Virus record (IMG/VR): IMGVR_UViG_3300050821_008336
Coordinates: 1 to 23,138 of that record
Reading direction: 5' to 3' (one strand)
Length of the DNA: 23,138 bases
From: a virus
Translations under genes and position numbers: made by a program
Shown here: piece after piece, positions 2,944 to 14,074 of the stretch
How the letters are laid out: each line of letters opens with the position of its first letter
How positions within the stretch are numbered: the stretch's first letter is position 1
The notes under the pieces: model-generated
What the model was told of the DNA's origin: nothing
Seen by the model: only the letters and a program-made list of their open reading frames with translations
Database searches by the model: none

Positions 2944-4479
2944 TTATTTTGGCAGTATAAAAGGTTTCTTGGTATTACCAGATTTCAGCCAGTTTTTAAA
3001 TGAAGTCATGTCGGTTGCTACAACTGATCCAACTCTTTGTAAACCTTTGCCGTCAGAAAAACCTTGCTCGTATGTATGAAGAGCTTGCTGAAGAGAGCCA
3101 AAGCCTAACAACACTTTGATTTCGTCGAACTGTTTACTATCTGCATCGATCTGATTTACTACGAAGACATGCTTTGATTTGGTATGCTGTCCAAGGTAAA
3201 TGTCAACATGGTCACCGTCAGCACCTTCGGTTCTCTTTATGTAGCCGTAATGCGCCGGCATCCGAACGGACCAACGCTTGCTGTCCTTACCAATACCAGA
3301 GCGTTCTTTGCCTTTGGCGTTCTCGATCGTTAAATTGAGGCCAAAGATATTAACATGATCTTTTGAATATGTGCCTGCGCGTTTTTGCGCTTCACTGGGT
3401 TGGTGATTGATATTCGAAGCAACTACGCGTCCACCACTCGCACGTTGTGGTACATTTATTTCTGGTGCTGTTTTAGCCTGATTTACTGGCCGTTTAACGT
3501 TTATTTTGTTATCGCTGGAATGCTCTTCAGCACTTATTGGTGCGCCAACCGAACTATCAGAAAATAACGGAAAGCCCTTCTTCAATATATCATCGCGCAT
3601 CTTGGGCGGTATATCGAAATATGGAATCTTTTTTGGTAAAATGTCTCGAGCGCGATCTTTCAAATCAGGAGCATGTCGTGCGAGCCATTGATCTTCCACA
3701 CCTGCTACAATTGCTTTTGAATGATCTCCAGAACGATAACTTCTTGAACCCGGCACATACTTGCCTTCTGGATCCTCTACCCAATACTGTTTACCAGATA
3801 TAGTTCTCATAGAAGCAACGGGTGATTCTTTTAATGCATAACCCGGTGGAAGATCGGGCACTTTAAACGGTGGGGCACCTTCTGCATACTTCACCTTCAC
3901 GCCATACTGCTTACCAATCTTTTCAACTATCTTGGGCAGCATCTGGTCGTAGAAGCCTTTCATTCCAGCTCCACCAACCTTGAGATCTACTCCTGTCAAA
4001 GTTTGTGGACCTTCTTTTAATCCTTTTTCAGCAACATCTTTTCCTATTACGTCAGCAATATTTTTACCTTTGATATCGCCCCAAACTTGCCCTGACTTTA
4101 AAATATTACCATCGTTATCTGTAGTAATTGAATCAAACGTTCTACCGCCTTTACCTTTAGGCCACCAGGTCTTTGTCGGCTTTCCCTCGTCGATAGATGG
4201 TATAGCTTGCAATTCATCAAAATGCTTACTCAAATCATACCGCGCTGCCTGTGCTTCGCCCGGAGTCCATGATACACGAGTTTTGCCTTCTTCCGCAGCC
4301 TTCTGTATCATTCGCTTCAATGCCAAGCCAGCCCACTGTTCAGTCTGCTTGAAGGGCATGTCTGGTAGGGAGGAACCAGGTATATATTTTTGCGCGTGCT
4401 CTGGAGGCATTTTACGCAGAGCATCTACTAGACCATCTTGGTCATATGTTTTACCTTGGTAAGTAAATCTACACGCCAT
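2944..4479 (-). CDS. C-terminal piece of a split polyvalent virion protein with a pyrophosphatase-like domain
   Basis: The 511-residue protein has two parts. Residues about 40-320 match the downstream half of a phage polyvalent-protein module: LPDMPFKQTEQW, LALKRMIQKAAEEG, VSWTPGEAQAARY, and a closing DIPPKMRDDILKKGFPLF. Residues about 365-511 resemble the inorganic-pyrophosphatase-like (InPase) domain of polyvalent proteins, with YSKDHVNIFGL, MPAHYGYI, the acidic GADGDHVDIYLG motif (about 419-430), FDEIKVLLGF and KNWL. RASGGRV precedes it. In relatives the first part is expected to follow directly after the EELQSD motif, which here ends the gene at 5165-9349 on the other side of a homing endonuclease. 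The start ATG at 4479 overlaps the endonuclease end by 11 nt and lacks a good ribosome-binding site. Probably packaged in the virion; enzymatic activity is inferred. Confidence 0.92.
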   Translation of the reverse strand: MACRFTYQGKTYDQDGLVDALRKMPPEHAQKYIPGSSLPDMPFKQTEQWAGLALKRMIQKAAEEGKTRVSWTPGEAQAARYDLSKHFDELQAIPSIDEGKPTKTWWPKGKGGRTFDSITTDNDGNILKSGQVWGDIKGKNIADVIGKDVAEKGLKEGPQTLTGVDLKVGGAGMKGFYDQMLPKIVEKIGKQYGVKVKYAEGAPPFKVPDLPPGYALKESPVASMRTISGKQYWVEDPEGKYVPGSRSYRSGDHSKAIVAGVEDQWLARHAPDLKDRARDILPKKIPYFDIPPKMRDDILKKGFPLFSDSSVGAPISAEEHSSDNKINVKRPVNQAKTAPEINVPQRASGGRVVASNINHQPSEAQKRAGTYSKDHVNIFGLNLTIENAKGKERSGIGKDSKRWSVRMPAHYGYIKRTEGADGDHVDIYLGQHTKSKHVFVVNQIDADSKQFDEIKVLLGFGSLQQALHTYEQGFSDGKGLQRVGSVVATDMTSFKNWLKSGNTKKPFILPK

Positions 4480-5161
4480 CTTGCACCAATTGTATATGTG
4501 GGTACAAATTTACTGTTCGCCAACCAAACAGACATCTATACAATAGATAAACATCCTCAATACCGTCAGCCTTCGCCGCTCTGGGTATGCTTGGATATAT
4601 AATTCCAGTTTTTGTATTTATCACTTTTCTAGAAATTGGAGTAGGTTTCCCAAAATGTGGATTTTTAGGGCCTAGTTTTGCTTTACCCATATTAGCTCGC
4701 CATTCTGGCGAAAGTTTTTGCCCCTTTTTAACTGATGTGCTTGTAGGGCCTTGTCTTGTTCTTCCGGCCGCCGCTCTTATCTTTAAACCAGGATCATCAA
4801 TATGTTGTTGTTTCATTTTCTGTCGACGAATTTCTTTTTGTTCTTCAGTCAAAACATATCTAGATGCCCCTTCACCTCCGTTAGTTTTATTAACCAAAGG
4901 ACCAGTTTTTAGATCAAGTCGACCAATTTCAACAATCAGTTCCATTTCTAAACGATGTGCTTCATCTTGAGTTCTACAAGATGCAAAGATTTCAACCCTA
5001 TATCCATGTTTGTTGGCAACATTTTTCCAATGCTGTCCTCTTGATTTTTCGTAAGCACGTTCATGGCTAATATAATCCGTGGTTTTTGATGTACCTTTAC
5101 CTACGTAAAAGACTACATTATCAGATAACCTGTAATGTTTGTAGACATAACAATACCACAT
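4469..5161 (-). CDS. GIY-YIG homing endonuclease with NUMOD domains
   Basis: The 230-residue protein starts with the GIY-YIG core: CYVYKH then FYVGKG, an Arg-containing HERAYEKS helix, catalytic-type Glu in HRLEMELI, and VNKTNGGEG. The second half has a NUMOD3-like DNA-binding stretch (KKGQKLSPEWRANMGKAKLG then NPHFGKP) and a NUMOD1-like end (VINTKTGIIYPSIPRAA). All core residues appear intact. The DNA is visibly more AT-rich than its neighbours. ATG 5161 lies 3 nt after, and in frame with, the TAG of the upstream gene, and the end overlaps the next ATG by 11 nt. There is no room outside the frame for a group I intron core, so it looks like an inserted free-standing endonuclease gene. Confidence 0.95.
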   Translation of the reverse strand: MWYCYVYKHYRLSDNVVFYVGKGTSKTTDYISHERAYEKSRGQHWKNVANKHGYRVEIFASCRTQDEAHRLEMELIVEIGRLDLKTGPLVNKTNGGEGASRYVLTEEQKEIRRQKMKQQHIDDPGLKIRAAAGRTRQGPTSTSVKKGQKLSPEWRANMGKAKLGPKNPHFGKPTPISRKVINTKTGIIYPSIPRAAKADGIEDVYLLYRCLFGWRTVNLYPHIQLVQDGV

Positions 5162-5164
5162 AAC

Positions 5165-8100
5165 CTAATCGCACTCTTTTTTAATCACTCCATCTTTTAG
5201 CATTTTTGCAGCTAGATCATCAAAGTTTTTATCTACATAATCAGCAACTATTTTGGCTTGTTTGCGGTGAGACTGAGCAAAATCAGACTGTAACTCTTCC
5301 AAATGCAACGCCGGTACGCCACCCACATCACGATCATTGGTGCGAACATGCGCTACCACATTGGGTTCATCCCAATGAGATGATTTGTAATTCTGTGTAC
5401 GTTGTTCATCTCTTTTTTGAACTAGACCAGCACGTTGCTTGGAAAGCTCTTCATTTTGTTTAATCATATTCATCACGGTATCAAAATGCTTTGTTTTGAA
5501 ATCGGGATCCTTCATAAGATCGAGAAGTTTTTCTCTATTGTTATCATATTGAGTGGCCAAATCTTTAATCTGTTTATCTACTGCCTGGGCATTATCAGGC
5601 AAAGTCAGTAAATGCTCACGATAATTTTTCCCACCAGGCAACTGGTAAGATGAATATTTAACTGTATTGCTGCTATGATACGAACTATCAGGATCATCGC
5701 GCATCATCTGTTCTACATAAGCACGTTGATCGCTGCCTTCAGAGTGAGTAGGGCGTCTTCCTTGTTCATTTTTGAAATCTTCTTCCCAATCATCCATATA
5801 ACGATCAACTGCGCGCTGAAGTTTCAATTCATCTAAATGACTTTGACCCTTCACAACATCATTTACTTGCACCTTGTTCTTATCGATGTAATCAGCTACT
5901 TGTTGTTTGGTGATCGGTCCCTTCTGTTCCCTCAACCAATTATCGATACCAGTATACTGTAGTTCATCGGGCTTGACGCCGGGTTGATTCTTCAACCAAT
6001 TCGCCCACTGCTCGCCATGCATTTTCTGTTGTGGTGCTTTGGCTATGGTTTGTTCGACTGCAGAATAGAAAGGTGGAGCATGTTCAAGCGCAGCGAGAGG
6101 AGCGCCTGGTAAAGCACTATCTTCCAAAATAGTAGAAGTCAGAGCCTTCTGACTCGCGGCATGTGGATCAATCAGTCCTTCCTTTACCGCATAATCCATC
6201 GCCGCATCACGATTTAAAAACTGCCCTTTATGATTCATGAAGCCAAAGTTAAAGTTACTGATATCCTCACCATTCATCGCTTGACGTTGGAATTCAGGAT
6301 AGATTTCAGGCGGGATGGCATCGAGATGTTGCCCGCCGACCGGCGCCTTGTATATTTTATTATTGTACTTCAAGGCGGGACGTAAAAAAGGTGCTGAACC
6401 AAGTGCTGCCGCGCCGCCTTCAACCCCCGTCGTTAAGCCCGCACCCCCCGCCATCCCGGCCATGTCCTGCGCCCGTTCCAACATCTCTGGATTGGGCACT
6501 ACTTCGCCGGTTTCGGGATTTACTATTTGGGTCGGTGTCTGACCTGTCATGACATCGTGCGGCAATGATCCTCCAGATCGAATCATACGCTCGGGCCAGG
6601 TTTGATAACGCCCTTCTCCTCCTGCGCCGACTAAACGATTGCCAATCTTGGTGCCTTTAGAAAAGGATCCTTCCTCAGTTAGTTTGTTTAATACAGGGCT
6701 CAATTCTTGTATATCTGGCAACAGTTTCTGATCGATTTCGCTGTTATCGGTTGCAGGAGGTAAACGTGCTGGCTGCGTTGCCAATCGATCATGTGCTTGC
6801 ACAATCATGTCGCCGATAACATCTGGTGATTTGCCCTCGCCTTGCTGCACATCTCGATCAGATGGAGAGACATACAAACGTTCTTGATCAGCAGTAGGCG
6901 CCCCACCATCTTCATAGCCTCTAACTTTGCCGCCACTGCGCTTGTTAGCAGGCGGTACAAAGGTTTGATCAGGCCCTTCCGGTCCTATCCAAAAGCCTGC
7001 TCGATCACGCTGATCACCTGTCGCATATTGCGATTGATCTGAAAACGTAGGATGATTGGGTTTCTTAAACAGATCCCCCATATGGCCATTATCAGCGCTA
7101 CGCCGCATGTTGGCCAGGTAGGCACCGCGTAAATCGTAGTCTACGCCGCTGTCATCGGGCGCATTCTGTTGTTTCCAAGTCTGAAATCCAGTTTCCTGTT
7201 CGGGCGTCAGAAAGGTATTGTAATCGTCTCCGACTCGACCTCCTTCGGCACGAGTAGGCGTTACATACAAACGTTGATCATTACTGCCTGCTTCAGACGT
7301 GCCCGGACCCGATGGCCCAGCTTGAAGCAAACGCATCGTGGATGCGTTGTCAATTCCAAGCTTGCCCAGTGCGGAACTTACATTTGTCGCAGCGAGCGCT
7401 CGTCTACTTTGATTTGCAACGCTATCTACACGCTGTTGTGCCTTGACGGCCTGTTGCCACTGTTTCAGGCGTTGCGACAACAGCGGCATCTGATTGGCTA
7501 TCTGACGGAGATTACGCGCGTTTTCAGCTTTATCTAACACTTTTGAGATTTGTTCGCCTGCTTTGTATCCTACAAAGCCGCCAACCACCGGTGCGATATG
7601 ATGACCGATAAACGCTCCCACCACGCCCAGGATCTTATCGGTTGCTGCTTTGATATGCGGGATGACACCAGCGGCGGTATTGGGCCAATTGGCTGCTACT
7701 TGTGGCACCGATAATTTCCGGTGCAATTCAGCATACTGATTTAGTAAATCGCGTTCCGCCGGACTAAATACAACATTAGCTAAATCTGATCCTTTGCCAT
7801 TTACAAATTCACCCAACCGGTTGGCAACAGTACCCGCGCCTCTATCCGCGACATTTTCAGCAGTCGATACCAGGCGATGGAATAAGCCCTGCTTGATCGC
7901 CGCCCATTCTGGAGAGGATTCCCCAAGTATATTTTTGATGCGCTTGGCGACACCGATGTTCAGTGAATTGGGGCTGGTACCGGATCCACTATAGATGTAG
8001 TTGGCGACATCATTTAATGAGGCTGGATCACGGTCTATGTCGCCAACGATTGCTTGTAGACGGCGCCCCACCGCATCGTTTCCCCAGGTCTGCATTCGCG

Positions 8101-9349
8101 CACTGTGCGCCGCACGGGCTTGATTGTAATAGTCAACCGCACGTAGATCGCCTCGAAAAGCACCTGAATTCACAGCATCCGAAATTCTACTATCGAATTC
8201 ATCGATGATAGCTCGTGCCGCGCGTGCATCGGATGGATTGGTATGATAGGCAGCGATCGCATCACCGCGCATCTTGGATAGATTCTTACGCCACTGTTCG
8301 ACGCCTTCTAGATTTACTCCTACAATCTGCCCCTGCGGTGTGGCTGGTTCGGCTAAATTCTTGATTCTGAGTTGGCCGATCTGATTATCAAGATAATTGA
8401 TCATTCTAGAGGCGACAGGGGTGTTATCATCGATGATTACAGATTCAGCACGATTGCTCAAATCGGCCTTGATATCCTGCGGCATATCGGTAAAGGTATC
8501 AGCATCGATTTCGCCCGGCAAAGCCTTAGCCCGATCATACAAAGACTTTACTTGTGCCTTGGAACGCGCCGCTTCTTTCTGCAAGGATTGTTGCGCTAGA
8601 TTGGCGGCTTCGGCAGGGTTGGTCGCTAATTCCTGCCCACCAACGGGGTCCAAAGACTTTACTACAAAATCCTTGTCTTCAGCCAATTGTTGTGGCCGCG
8701 CAACGTTTAAGAATTCCTCCGCATGTTCTTGCGCTGGTTTACCCGCCTGACCTCTGATCGCGCCTTGTTCGGCTTGACGTAGTGCCAGGTCACCGGTCTG
8801 TTCGCCCTCGGTCAAGACGGTCTTGAAGGGTCCGGTGCCTGCAGGTGCCGCAGGCTTTGGTATAGTAGGAACATTAGGCTTGGCCTTGAGACTGGTTAAG
8901 CCGATGCCAGGCGTTGCTAATTGTGACGCAAATTCGGTATATTCGCGCGGAATGCCCGTCACATCCTCTAACGGTTGTCCAACGATCGACCTATAAGCGG
9001 CAGATACTGGCGATGCGACAAACCCGGCCGCACCGATAGCGGTCTTGGCAGCGCCGCTCAAGACATCAGACAGGCCATGCGCTTTGGGATCGATCAGACT
9101 GTCGGGGTGCGTAATCTGATGCAAGCCCTCAGACACTTGTTCTCCAGCTTCCCCCCGCATCCGCTTGTAGGTTTCGGGGTAGCTTGCGACAGGACTCAAA
9201 GCCTTGCCGACAGGCGACAGTTTCTGCCGCTCAGATAACCCATGATCGGCTGGTTCAGGAGGCATAGAACCCAAATAAGAATCCGGATCAAAGGACCCGG
9301 AATCAGATTGCTTAGGTGCTAGATATATATCTGGATCGAAATCAGCCAT
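5165..9349 (-). CDS. large polyvalent/ejection-type virion protein, N-terminal piece
   Basis: The 1394-residue protein opens with a duplicated DPDxYL motif (FDPDIYLAP, FDPDSYLGS). It then has long helical regions, a Gly/Ala-rich hydrophobic stretch near 565-600, a segment with YDLRGAYLANM and KPNHPTFSDQS near 735-765 known from other phage virion proteins, GG-motifs (AEGGRV near 703, SGGKV near 806), and polyvalent-protein segments KYNNKIYKAP (near 993), FYSAVEQ then QPGVKPDEL (near 1090-1120), YREHLLTLP (near 1243), HWDEPNVVAHVR (near 1325) and LHLEELQSDFAQSH (near 1348). It stops at KKECD, just where relatives would be expected to continue into the module now in the 2944-4479 gene. It starts as TAATG with the upstream gene. 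A role as protein injected with the DNA is inference from size, position and domains. Confidence 0.93.
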   Translation of the reverse strand: MADFDPDIYLAPKQSDSGSFDPDSYLGSMPPEPADHGLSERQKLSPVGKALSPVASYPETYKRMRGEAGEQVSEGLHQITHPDSLIDPKAHGLSDVLSGAAKTAIGAAGFVASPVSAAYRSIVGQPLEDVTGIPREYTEFASQLATPGIGLTSLKAKPNVPTIPKPAAPAGTGPFKTVLTEGEQTGDLALRQAEQGAIRGQAGKPAQEHAEEFLNVARPQQLAEDKDFVVKSLDPVGGQELATNPAEAANLAQQSLQKEAARSKAQVKSLYDRAKALPGEIDADTFTDMPQDIKADLSNRAESVIIDDNTPVASRMINYLDNQIGQLRIKNLAEPATPQGQIVGVNLEGVEQWRKNLSKMRGDAIAAYHTNPSDARAARAIIDEFDSRISDAVNSGAFRGDLRAVDYYNQARAAHSARMQTWGNDAVGRRLQAIVGDIDRDPASLNDVANYIYSGSGTSPNSLNIGVAKRIKNILGESSPEWAAIKQGLFHRLVSTAENVADRGAGTVANRLGEFVNGKGSDLANVVFSPAERDLLNQYAELHRKLSVPQVAANWPNTAAGVIPHIKAATDKILGVVGAFIGHHIAPVVGGFVGYKAGEQISKVLDKAENARNLRQIANQMPLLSQRLKQWQQAVKAQQRVDSVANQSRRALAATNVSSALGKLGIDNASTMRLLQAGPSGPGTSEAGSNDQRLYVTPTRAEGGRVGDDYNTFLTPEQETGFQTWKQQNAPDDSGVDYDLRGAYLANMRRSADNGHMGDLFKKPNHPTFSDQSQYATGDQRDRAGFWIGPEGPDQTFVPPANKRSGGKVRGYEDGGAPTADQERLYVSPSDRDVQQGEGKSPDVIGDMIVQAHDRLATQPARLPPATDNSEIDQKLLPDIQELSPVLNKLTEEGSFSKGTKIGNRLVGAGGEGRYQTWPERMIRSGGSLPHDVMTGQTPTQIVNPETGEVVPNPEMLERAQDMAGMAGGAGLTTGVEGGAAALGSAPFLRPALKYNNKIYKAPVGGQHLDAIPPEIYPEFQRQAMNGEDISNFNFGFMNHKGQFLNRDAAMDYAVKEGLIDPHAASQKALTSTILEDSALPGAPLAALEHAPPFYSAVEQTIAKAPQQKMHGEQWANWLKNQPGVKPDELQYTGIDNWLREQKGPITKQQVADYIDKNKVQVNDVVKGQSHLDELKLQRAVDRYMDDWEEDFKNEQGRRPTHSEGSDQRAYVEQMMRDDPDSSYHSSNTVKYSSYQLPGGKNYREHLLTLPDNAQAVDKQIKDLATQYDNNREKLLDLMKDPDFKTKHFDTVMNMIKQNEELSKQRAGLVQKRDEQRTQNYKSSHWDEPNVVAHVRTNDRDVGGVPALHLEELQSDFAQSHRKQAKIVADYVDKNFDDLAAKMLKDGVIKKECD

Positions 9350-12744: not shown

Positions 12745-13218
12745 TTACGCTGCGACTTTCTTCTGATACACGAAGAAGCGCCCTTTATAATCATCAGCAC
12801 GGAGCTGACGTTCGTACAGTAATTCTTTACGTTCGGTTGGGTGATTAGACAAGATACCGATAAATAGTGGAAAGCCTGATTCGTCTGCACACCATTTGGC
12901 AAAACGTAGAAGCTCCACCGCATTACGCGATTTACGGTGCTCTGGTACTACATATAAAAATAATTCTTCCCAATGTGGATCGTCTGAATACCAGAACGAC
13001 GACATCAACAAGAAAAGCAATCCTTCCAATCTACCAGGATTTCCGACGCCCGCCAGGATGCCGCCTTGCTTATCAAAAGCACGAGATAACATCGCTCGTA
13101 CTTTATCATCGTTCATAGTAAAGATGCCATTCTCTTTATGTAACTGATGGCATAATTCCAGAACGTTTTCTTCTTCGTCGCGCCCGATGATTCGAGCACG
13201 ACCTTGGTAATTGGTCAT
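12745..13218 (-). CDS. GNAT-family N-acetyltransferase
   Basis: The 157-residue protein has the GNAT order. A beta strand ELFLYVVPEHRKSRNAVELLRFA (residues about 84-108) is the beta4-motif A region, in which EHRKSRNA takes the place of the acetyl-CoA-binding Q/RxxGxG/A loop, followed by the beta5-like FPLFIGILSN and the C-terminal LLYERQL then GRFFVYQ. Many phages carry such a gene beside their virion genes; the acceptor is not known and may be a virion or host protein. The pyrophosphate loop is less Gly-rich than the classical motif, so activity is not certain. Confidence 0.88.
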   Translation of the reverse strand: MTNYQGRARIIGRDEEENVLELCHQLHKENGIFTMNDDKVRAMLSRAFDKQGGILAGVGNPGRLEGLLFLLMSSFWYSDDPHWEELFLYVVPEHRKSRNAVELLRFAKWCADESGFPLFIGILSNHPTERKELLYERQLRADDYKGRFFVYQKKVAA

Positions 13219-13540: not shown

Positions 13541-14074
13541 TTAGAAGTTGCTGTTTCTTTGGTGCATTGGTTCTTCGTAGTAATCTTCGTACCAAATGCT
13601 TCCTGTTTTATATGGAATTGGTTCAATATCAGACGCCAATCTTTTCCCCCTTCTATTCAACCATCTGAATTGACGCTTAATTAACGCCATTTCTTTTTTG
13701 TAATCCTCAGATAAGACATTTTTTCCTGTAACGGTATTTCTATTGACAAAAAAGAATTCAGCCAAATTAATTTGTTCTTTTTTGATCCTAACCCAAGGTT
13801 TAATGAATTGTAAAAAATCTATGCACTGTTGACCAGATACTGCCCAACAATAAGTATTCTTCCAATTAACATTATCTTTTTGTGTAAAATATATTGCTCC
13901 TCCAAATTCACGTTTGAAATATTCGATTATTTCTTTATCAGTATTTTCTATTGAGGCTCCAATCCGACCGCCTCCATGTGTGTCTGTAAGAAAAGTAACA
14001 GTTCCTTCACCATCAAAAAATCCAGCTGCATACGCAAGTTGCTCGTTTGAGTAAAGACGCACTCTTTCGACCAT
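13541..14074 (-). CDS. LAGLIDADG homing endonuclease
   Basis: The 177-residue protein has one LAGLIDADG motif, LAYAAGFFDGEGTV, at residues about 13-26, so it would act as a homodimer. The acidic residue of the motif (D in FDGEG) is kept. Downstream WAVSGQQCIDFLQFIKPWVRIKKEQ matches the usual C-terminal part of phage members. The DNA is AT-rich relative to neighbours, which points to recent transfer. It sits between two intact virion-region genes, 7 nt and 12 nt from them, so unlike the GIY-YIG gene it appears to be an intergenic insertion that leaves both flanks whole. Confidence 0.93.
   Translation of the reverse strand: MVERVRLYSNEQLAYAAGFFDGEGTVTFLTDTHGGGRIGASIENTDKEIIEYFKREFGGAIYFTQKDNVNWKNTYCWAVSGQQCIDFLQFIKPWVRIKKEQINLAEFFFVNRNTVTGKNVLSEDYKKEMALIKRQFRWLNRRGKRLASDIEPIPYKTGSIWYEDYYEEPMHQRNSNF

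Follow-up and report, generated by a model that had tools for sequence, protein, structure and literature searches.

The window analysed in this study is a virus record of 23.1 kb, and its minus strand carries three consecutive genes, a long gene A, a short endonuclease gene and a gene B, whose coordinates and internal features are collected in Table 1. The protein of gene A ends in VIKKECD and a stop, and that of gene B starts with MACRFTYQGK. The ATG of the endonuclease gene lies 3 nt past the stop of A and its end overlaps the start of B by 11 nt, while the Cys codons TGC and TGT stand on either side of the junction. The open reading frames, the gap, the overlap and the two codons had all been noted earlier from the sequence alone (hereafter the sequence-only reading), and they held when checked.

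Table 1. Features annotated in the window (positions counted over its whole length)
Feature	Position	Strand	Remarks
Gene A, 1394 aa	5165-9349	minus	N-terminal piece; carries the module's N half in its C-terminal part
N half of module	5282-6070	minus	A residues ~1094-1356, ends ..LHLEELQSD
Tail N	5165-5281	minus	38 residues FAQSHRKQ..KNFDDLAAKMLKDGVIKKECD and the stop; conserved in split copies only
GIY-YIG homing endonuclease gene, 230 aa	4469-5161	minus	NUMOD3-like region at residues 147-172
Tail C	4366-4479	minus	First 38 residues of B, MACRFTYQGKTYDQDGLVDALRKMPPEHAQKYIPGSSL
Gene B, 511 aa	2944-4479	minus	C-terminal piece
C half of module	3559-4365	minus	B residues 39-307, PDMPFK..GMKGFYDQM..PYFDIPPKMRDDILKKGFPLFS
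PF18823 InPase domain of B	2983-3393	minus	B residues 363-499; also present in the unsplit gene of L237
Inferred mobile cassette (tail N, endonuclease, tail C)	4366-5281	minus	916 nt
Six-tRNA array	4-567	minus	Val, Leu, Leu, Thr, Thr, Thr; three different Thr anticodons
Small acetyltransferase-like gene	12745-13218	minus	PHROG 1249; adjoins the ejection-protein gene
Second nuclease gene	13541-14074	minus	PHROG 5046 HNH; Pfam LAGLIDADG_3 just under cutoff

The ORF in the gap matches PHROG 314 homing endonuclease with an E-value of 1e-22. Its catalytic region shows the motif YVY..FYVGKG and conserved Tyr positions, with R35 and E72 invariant in five relatives, and its NUMOD3 match (E 0.0075) stays below the cutoff, which the corresponding endonuclease of the related locus L198 passes with an E-value of 3.6e-06. 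Having the GIY/YIG motif, the catalytic Arg and Glu and the NUMOD region, the ORF meets the criteria for a GIY-YIG endonuclease. The GC content of the gene is 0.38, low for this DNA and in the lowest 4% of segments of its size.

Some further features were observed in the surroundings. The small acetyltransferase-like gene is kept in a collinear relative, L266, at 65%, and MW202675 has a putative acetyltransferase at the matching position. The neighbours of the second nuclease gene are adjacent in L266, where no match to that nuclease was found, so that this gene appears to be a second homing endonuclease insertion, an intergenic one. As for the sequence-only reading that gene A and gene B together are a virion gene, it held only in part: the label has no support other than gene order, namely the position next to a DNA-ejection/internal virion protein gene, from which alone a virion location of the A and B products can be inferred.

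The module and its single-chain relatives

When the C-terminal end of A is joined to the N-terminal part of B, the two match single ORFs of relatives with E-values down to 1e-121. Both halves occur in one ORF in 236 of the 245 fetched loci, a selected sample consisting of the best 80 per scan. Counting distinct complete modules, 222 of 226 are single-chain and 4, including that of the window, are split; the loci outside this tally are truncated contigs or duplicates. In the module alignment (in joined-sequence numbering) residues to either side of the break are invariant, namely E272, Q274 and S275 on the A side and P351, W361, G386, R392 and the stretch GGxGMKGFYDQM on the B side, and right at the break there is a hypervariable linker, which in the unsplit proteins is 1-240 residues long.

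The closest relative is L237, a viral contig of 103.6 kb whose collinearity with the window extends over nine genes of the latter (A and B taken as two), with identities of 73-76% in the stabilisation protein and 43-65% in the ejection protein. Here a single gene of 1818 aa (L237:1936-7392) covers residues 83-709 and 914-1364 of A and 36-509 of B, and at its start it overlaps the upstream gene by 1 nt, the same as gene A does in the window. No endonuclease match was found in the 103.6-kb contig, and the last ~30 residues of A and the first ~35 residues of B have no counterpart there; in their place is an unrelated linker of about 78 codons, where the window carries the inferred cassette. The sequences thus show that an ancestral single gene is now two and that the endonuclease gene occupies the linker-coding stretch, and the first mark of a gene split by a homing endonuclease gene, a single-chain relative without the nuclease, is met by L237 as well as by another relative, L208. 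This was the central claim of the sequence-only reading, and it stands on the L237 gene and the 222 single-chain relatives; two of the checks it proposed, a comparison with unsplit homologues and a search for a relative lacking the insert, were both positive. It had further supposed that the unsplit gene may have read KECRFTY across the junction, and this part failed: no relative found reads so, and the linker is replaced instead. A clean insertion between KEC and RFTY is ruled out, the linkers of L208 and L237 sharing no evident sequence with the ends of A and B.

What kind of fold is interrupted can only be suggested. AlphaFold2 modelled the unsplit module of L208 with a mean pLDDT of 89 and a pTM of 0.83, the linker forming an ordered excursion of three strands and a helix. 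When two insertions, a coiled coil and the linker excursion, are left out, the order of elements fits that of GNAT proteins (b1-a1-a2-b2-b3-b4-a3-b5-a4-b6-b7), and VIA-align ranks GNAT proteins first with 127-131 residues aligned, namely AtaT (Z 9.9, 129 residues, rmsd 4.0), followed by KacT (Z 9.6) and NatD (Z 9.5). However, unrelated coiled-coil matches reach Z 9.5 too, Foldseek against the PDB gave nothing below E 0.02 for the L208 module, and a sequence-profile search of the PDB gave no match and hence no sequence support for GNAT; for these reasons the assignment remains tentative. The only strong matches in BFVD were phage proteins, either uncharacterised or polyvalent. A divergent GNAT-like fold is therefore no more than a possibility resting on one structure comparison, with neither acetyl-CoA binding nor activity shown. 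If it is right, the model predicts that the break falls between strand 4 and helix 3 and that neither half would be a GNAT alone.

Recurrence of the split and its tails

The split is found at the same place in at least four more loci of phage type, distantly related, which makes five with the window: L135, a contig in a Patescibacteria MAG, and the IMG/VR records 3300011271_000006 (L201), 3300043411_000205 (L198) and 3300033148_002854 (L257). In L135, L201 and L198 the split site holds a GIY-YIG gene about 40% identical to that of the window, and in L257 it holds an antisense HNH_3 gene (L257:6132-6803, minus strand; Pfam E 3.5e-06) with repeated CxxC motifs. All five loci share a pair of tails at the new termini. 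Both tails are nearly fixed in length. QSD is followed by the 37-38 residues of tail N, which close with G(V/I)(I/L)xxxC(D), a pattern summarised as GVIKKxC(D); the 38-39 residues of tail C open with M(A/P)C, in summary MACxFxYxGKxY, and lead up to P(D/N)xPF. Each tail has a Cys that is invariant in 5/5, in tail N at its end and in tail C as residue 3. In a model of the C piece of L198 the tail appears as strand-strand-helix, and this piece alone gave no structural match above Z 5.

Within the fetched loci the tail HMMs match split copies only, and two tail-pattern scans of IMG/VR returned only split viral loci, L257 among them. An unsplit gene bearing the tails was found neither by these HMM searches and pattern scans nor by tblastn of phages and plasmids, and in plasmids there was no tail match at all. 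A second mark of a gene split by a homing endonuclease gene, tails at the new termini that are absent from the unsplit protein, is thereby met. Among the candidates set aside, a tail match in Kokobel1 (E 0.09) falls in a portal gene and is taken as spurious, and weak tail-HMM matches in L004 and L142 were dismissed for their unrelated contexts. Of 20 tail comparisons, 19 gave pN<pS (with partial saturation at synonymous sites), so that the tails seem to be held as protein and not merely as a DNA target.

These data bear on two rivals. The first is a group I or group II intron with an endonuclease ORF, in which the two pieces would be exons joined in RNA. GIY-YIG genes are often borne by introns, and a gap of about 700 nt would suit one. 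Against this, Rfam gave no intron match at the gathering threshold or at a relaxed one (E<=5), so that there is no sign of a ribozyme core; the ORF fills the gap and leaves little room for such a core; the stops and the M-x-C starts are conserved in 5/5 loci; and the nuclease of L257 is antisense. The intron is all but excluded. The second rival is that the split inactivated the module and the pieces are decaying remnants, for which one may cite the rarity of split copies (5 against 222) and an apparent frameshift upstream in the N piece of L135. It is nevertheless very unlikely: at 40-60% identity, both halves still have open frames and the invariant residues, and the tails look constrained as protein. 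Regarding L135 itself, its N piece runs on across a frame change at L135:1213-1225 (plus strand), which may be a sequencing error or a real frameshift, and a second GIY-YIG-like ORF lies downstream on the same short contig (L135:4341-4982, plus strand).

A tree was built from the module bodies with the linkers left out. On it 4 changes are required to account for the split copies, and well-supported branches force 3 of these; the split copies were grouped as one clade in none of 200 bootstrap trees, and a single origin of the split followed by vertical descent is rejected by the AU test (p=0.0016). When L257 was added in a quick tree, there were 5 changes, all forced. The tree also bears on the proposition that there were two genes to begin with and that fusion gave rise to the single-chain forms. 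Fusions are indeed common among phage polyvalent proteins; the split copies, however, are scattered singly among single-chain relatives, and L237 and L208 are unsplit sisters, which all but excludes this explanation.

The closest comparison is that of L198 with the unsplit L208, sisters with a support of 100/100. Their DNA is 82-83% identical up to IQSD and from PDAPF onward, and between these points L198 has 892 nt of tail, nuclease and tail versus a 229-nt linker in L208. The C bodies of the two are 77% identical; between L198 and L201 the tails are 68-72% identical and the C bodies 44%. Since the tails of L198 resemble those of L201 while its C body resembles that of L208, the tails would have moved together with the nuclease, and this is the pattern expected if tail, nuclease and tail travelled as a unit. 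Since four other loci show the split again, each with the conserved tails, it looks like the work of a spreading cassette rather than one accident.

A putative homing cassette in view of known split genes

The reading we prefer, with a probability of about 0.7, is that a homing cassette made of a nuclease and two complementary tails has spread repeatedly into one loop of the module, and that the tails dock the two halves. The mobile unit would consist of tail N, the endonuclease and tail C. The endonuclease would cut linker alleles without the cassette, and double-strand-break repair would copy in the nuclease with its flanking tails in place of the recipient linker, which is bounded by the conserved motifs EEIQSD and PDAPF; cleavage of the empty allele and copying-in are inferred, only occupied and empty sites having been compared. 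The three genes are probably co-transcribed, and given the 3-nt gap and the 11-nt overlap they are probably translated by coupling. The tails (helix-strand on A, strand-strand-helix on B) may then form one small subdomain across the break, which would dock the two polypeptides and rebuild the module as a two-chain protein. A disulfide between the invariant tail Cys residues could possibly staple the break, a suggestion without proof. That the product is functional as two chains is inferred from the conserved residues and the tails; docking, reassembly and activity are likewise inferred, there being no protein or RNA data, and the sequence-only claim that two polypeptides rebuild one protein thus remains an inference.

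Two reservations should be kept in mind: the conservation of the tails could partly reflect the DNA target of the nuclease, and the loop with the tails may itself be older, an allele that serves different nucleases as a target. Developed into a rival, the latter supposes an old, horizontally exchanged loop allele, once unsplit, whose conserved DNA is the reason why unrelated endonucleases (GIY-YIG and HNH) target it, the tails being ordinary linker and not adaptors brought by the nuclease. In its favour, two nuclease families lie at the same Cys codon, the unsplit linkers, too, fold into a small, ordered subdomain of strands and helix, of which the tails could be one version, and the junction DNA is conserved between L135 and L201. 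We consider it unlikely, however, as the unsplit tail-bearing gene it calls for did not appear in the HMM, pattern and tblastn searches described above. The L257 locus, having HNH and not GIY-YIG, does make it too simple to say that the tails belong to one nuclease. A bolder form of the cassette reading, which we would neither favour nor dismiss, is that a self-splinting cassette with its own docking tails breaks chains in many phages without loss of function, and that nuclease families share the docking site. Few cases are known in which a homing endonuclease splits a gene without an intron or intein. With five scattered cases, two nuclease families, tails and unsplit sisters, one can ask how a gene-breaking selfish gene is tolerated; the tail pair might also serve as a ready-made means of docking split proteins.

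Among known systems the nearest is Aeromonas phage Aeh1, where the free-standing HNH endonuclease gene mobE splits nrdA and the pieces form an active enzyme (PMC2988022); the NrdA pieces are reported to assemble via tails derived from the mobile element (Crona et al. 2011). The parallel with Aeh1 drawn by the sequence-only reading holds as a resemblance, of which the window is a variant. In both, a free-standing homing endonuclease gene makes one gene into two coding regions; Aeh1, however, concerns a metabolic enzyme in one phage, whereas the window concerns an unnamed phage module with a GIY-YIG (or HNH) gene, which occurs at five scattered loci, always with the same tails, and has unsplit sisters that reveal the replaced stretch. 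The split reductase has been counted as at least one known instance (PMC10448857). T4 gene 60/39 (mobA) and Aeromonas phage 25 gene 43 (seg43) are further endonuclease-associated split genes whose products reassemble or co-purify (PMC2988022), and in the case of gene 43 the nuclease may or may not have been the cause of the split (PMC2988022); unlike the module of the window, these are replication proteins, and no shared tail pair is mentioned for them in the relevant text of PMC2988022. A nuclease gene likewise lies between two gene halves in the fractured genes that combine split inteins with a homing endonuclease (Dassa et al. 2009, cited in PMC10448857). In those genes the split inteins ligate the protein, while no intein is seen in the window, whose tails could do no more than dock or, at the most, become linked by a disulfide. 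With its GIY-YIG catalytic and NUMOD-type DNA-binding regions the endonuclease resembles the Seg-like free-standing GIY-YIG endonucleases, yet the T4 seg genes sit between genes and that of the window sits within one. Compared with all of these, it is apparently new that a split with conserved tails recurs in unrelated phages, that the linker is replaced, and that nuclease families have been exchanged at a single site.
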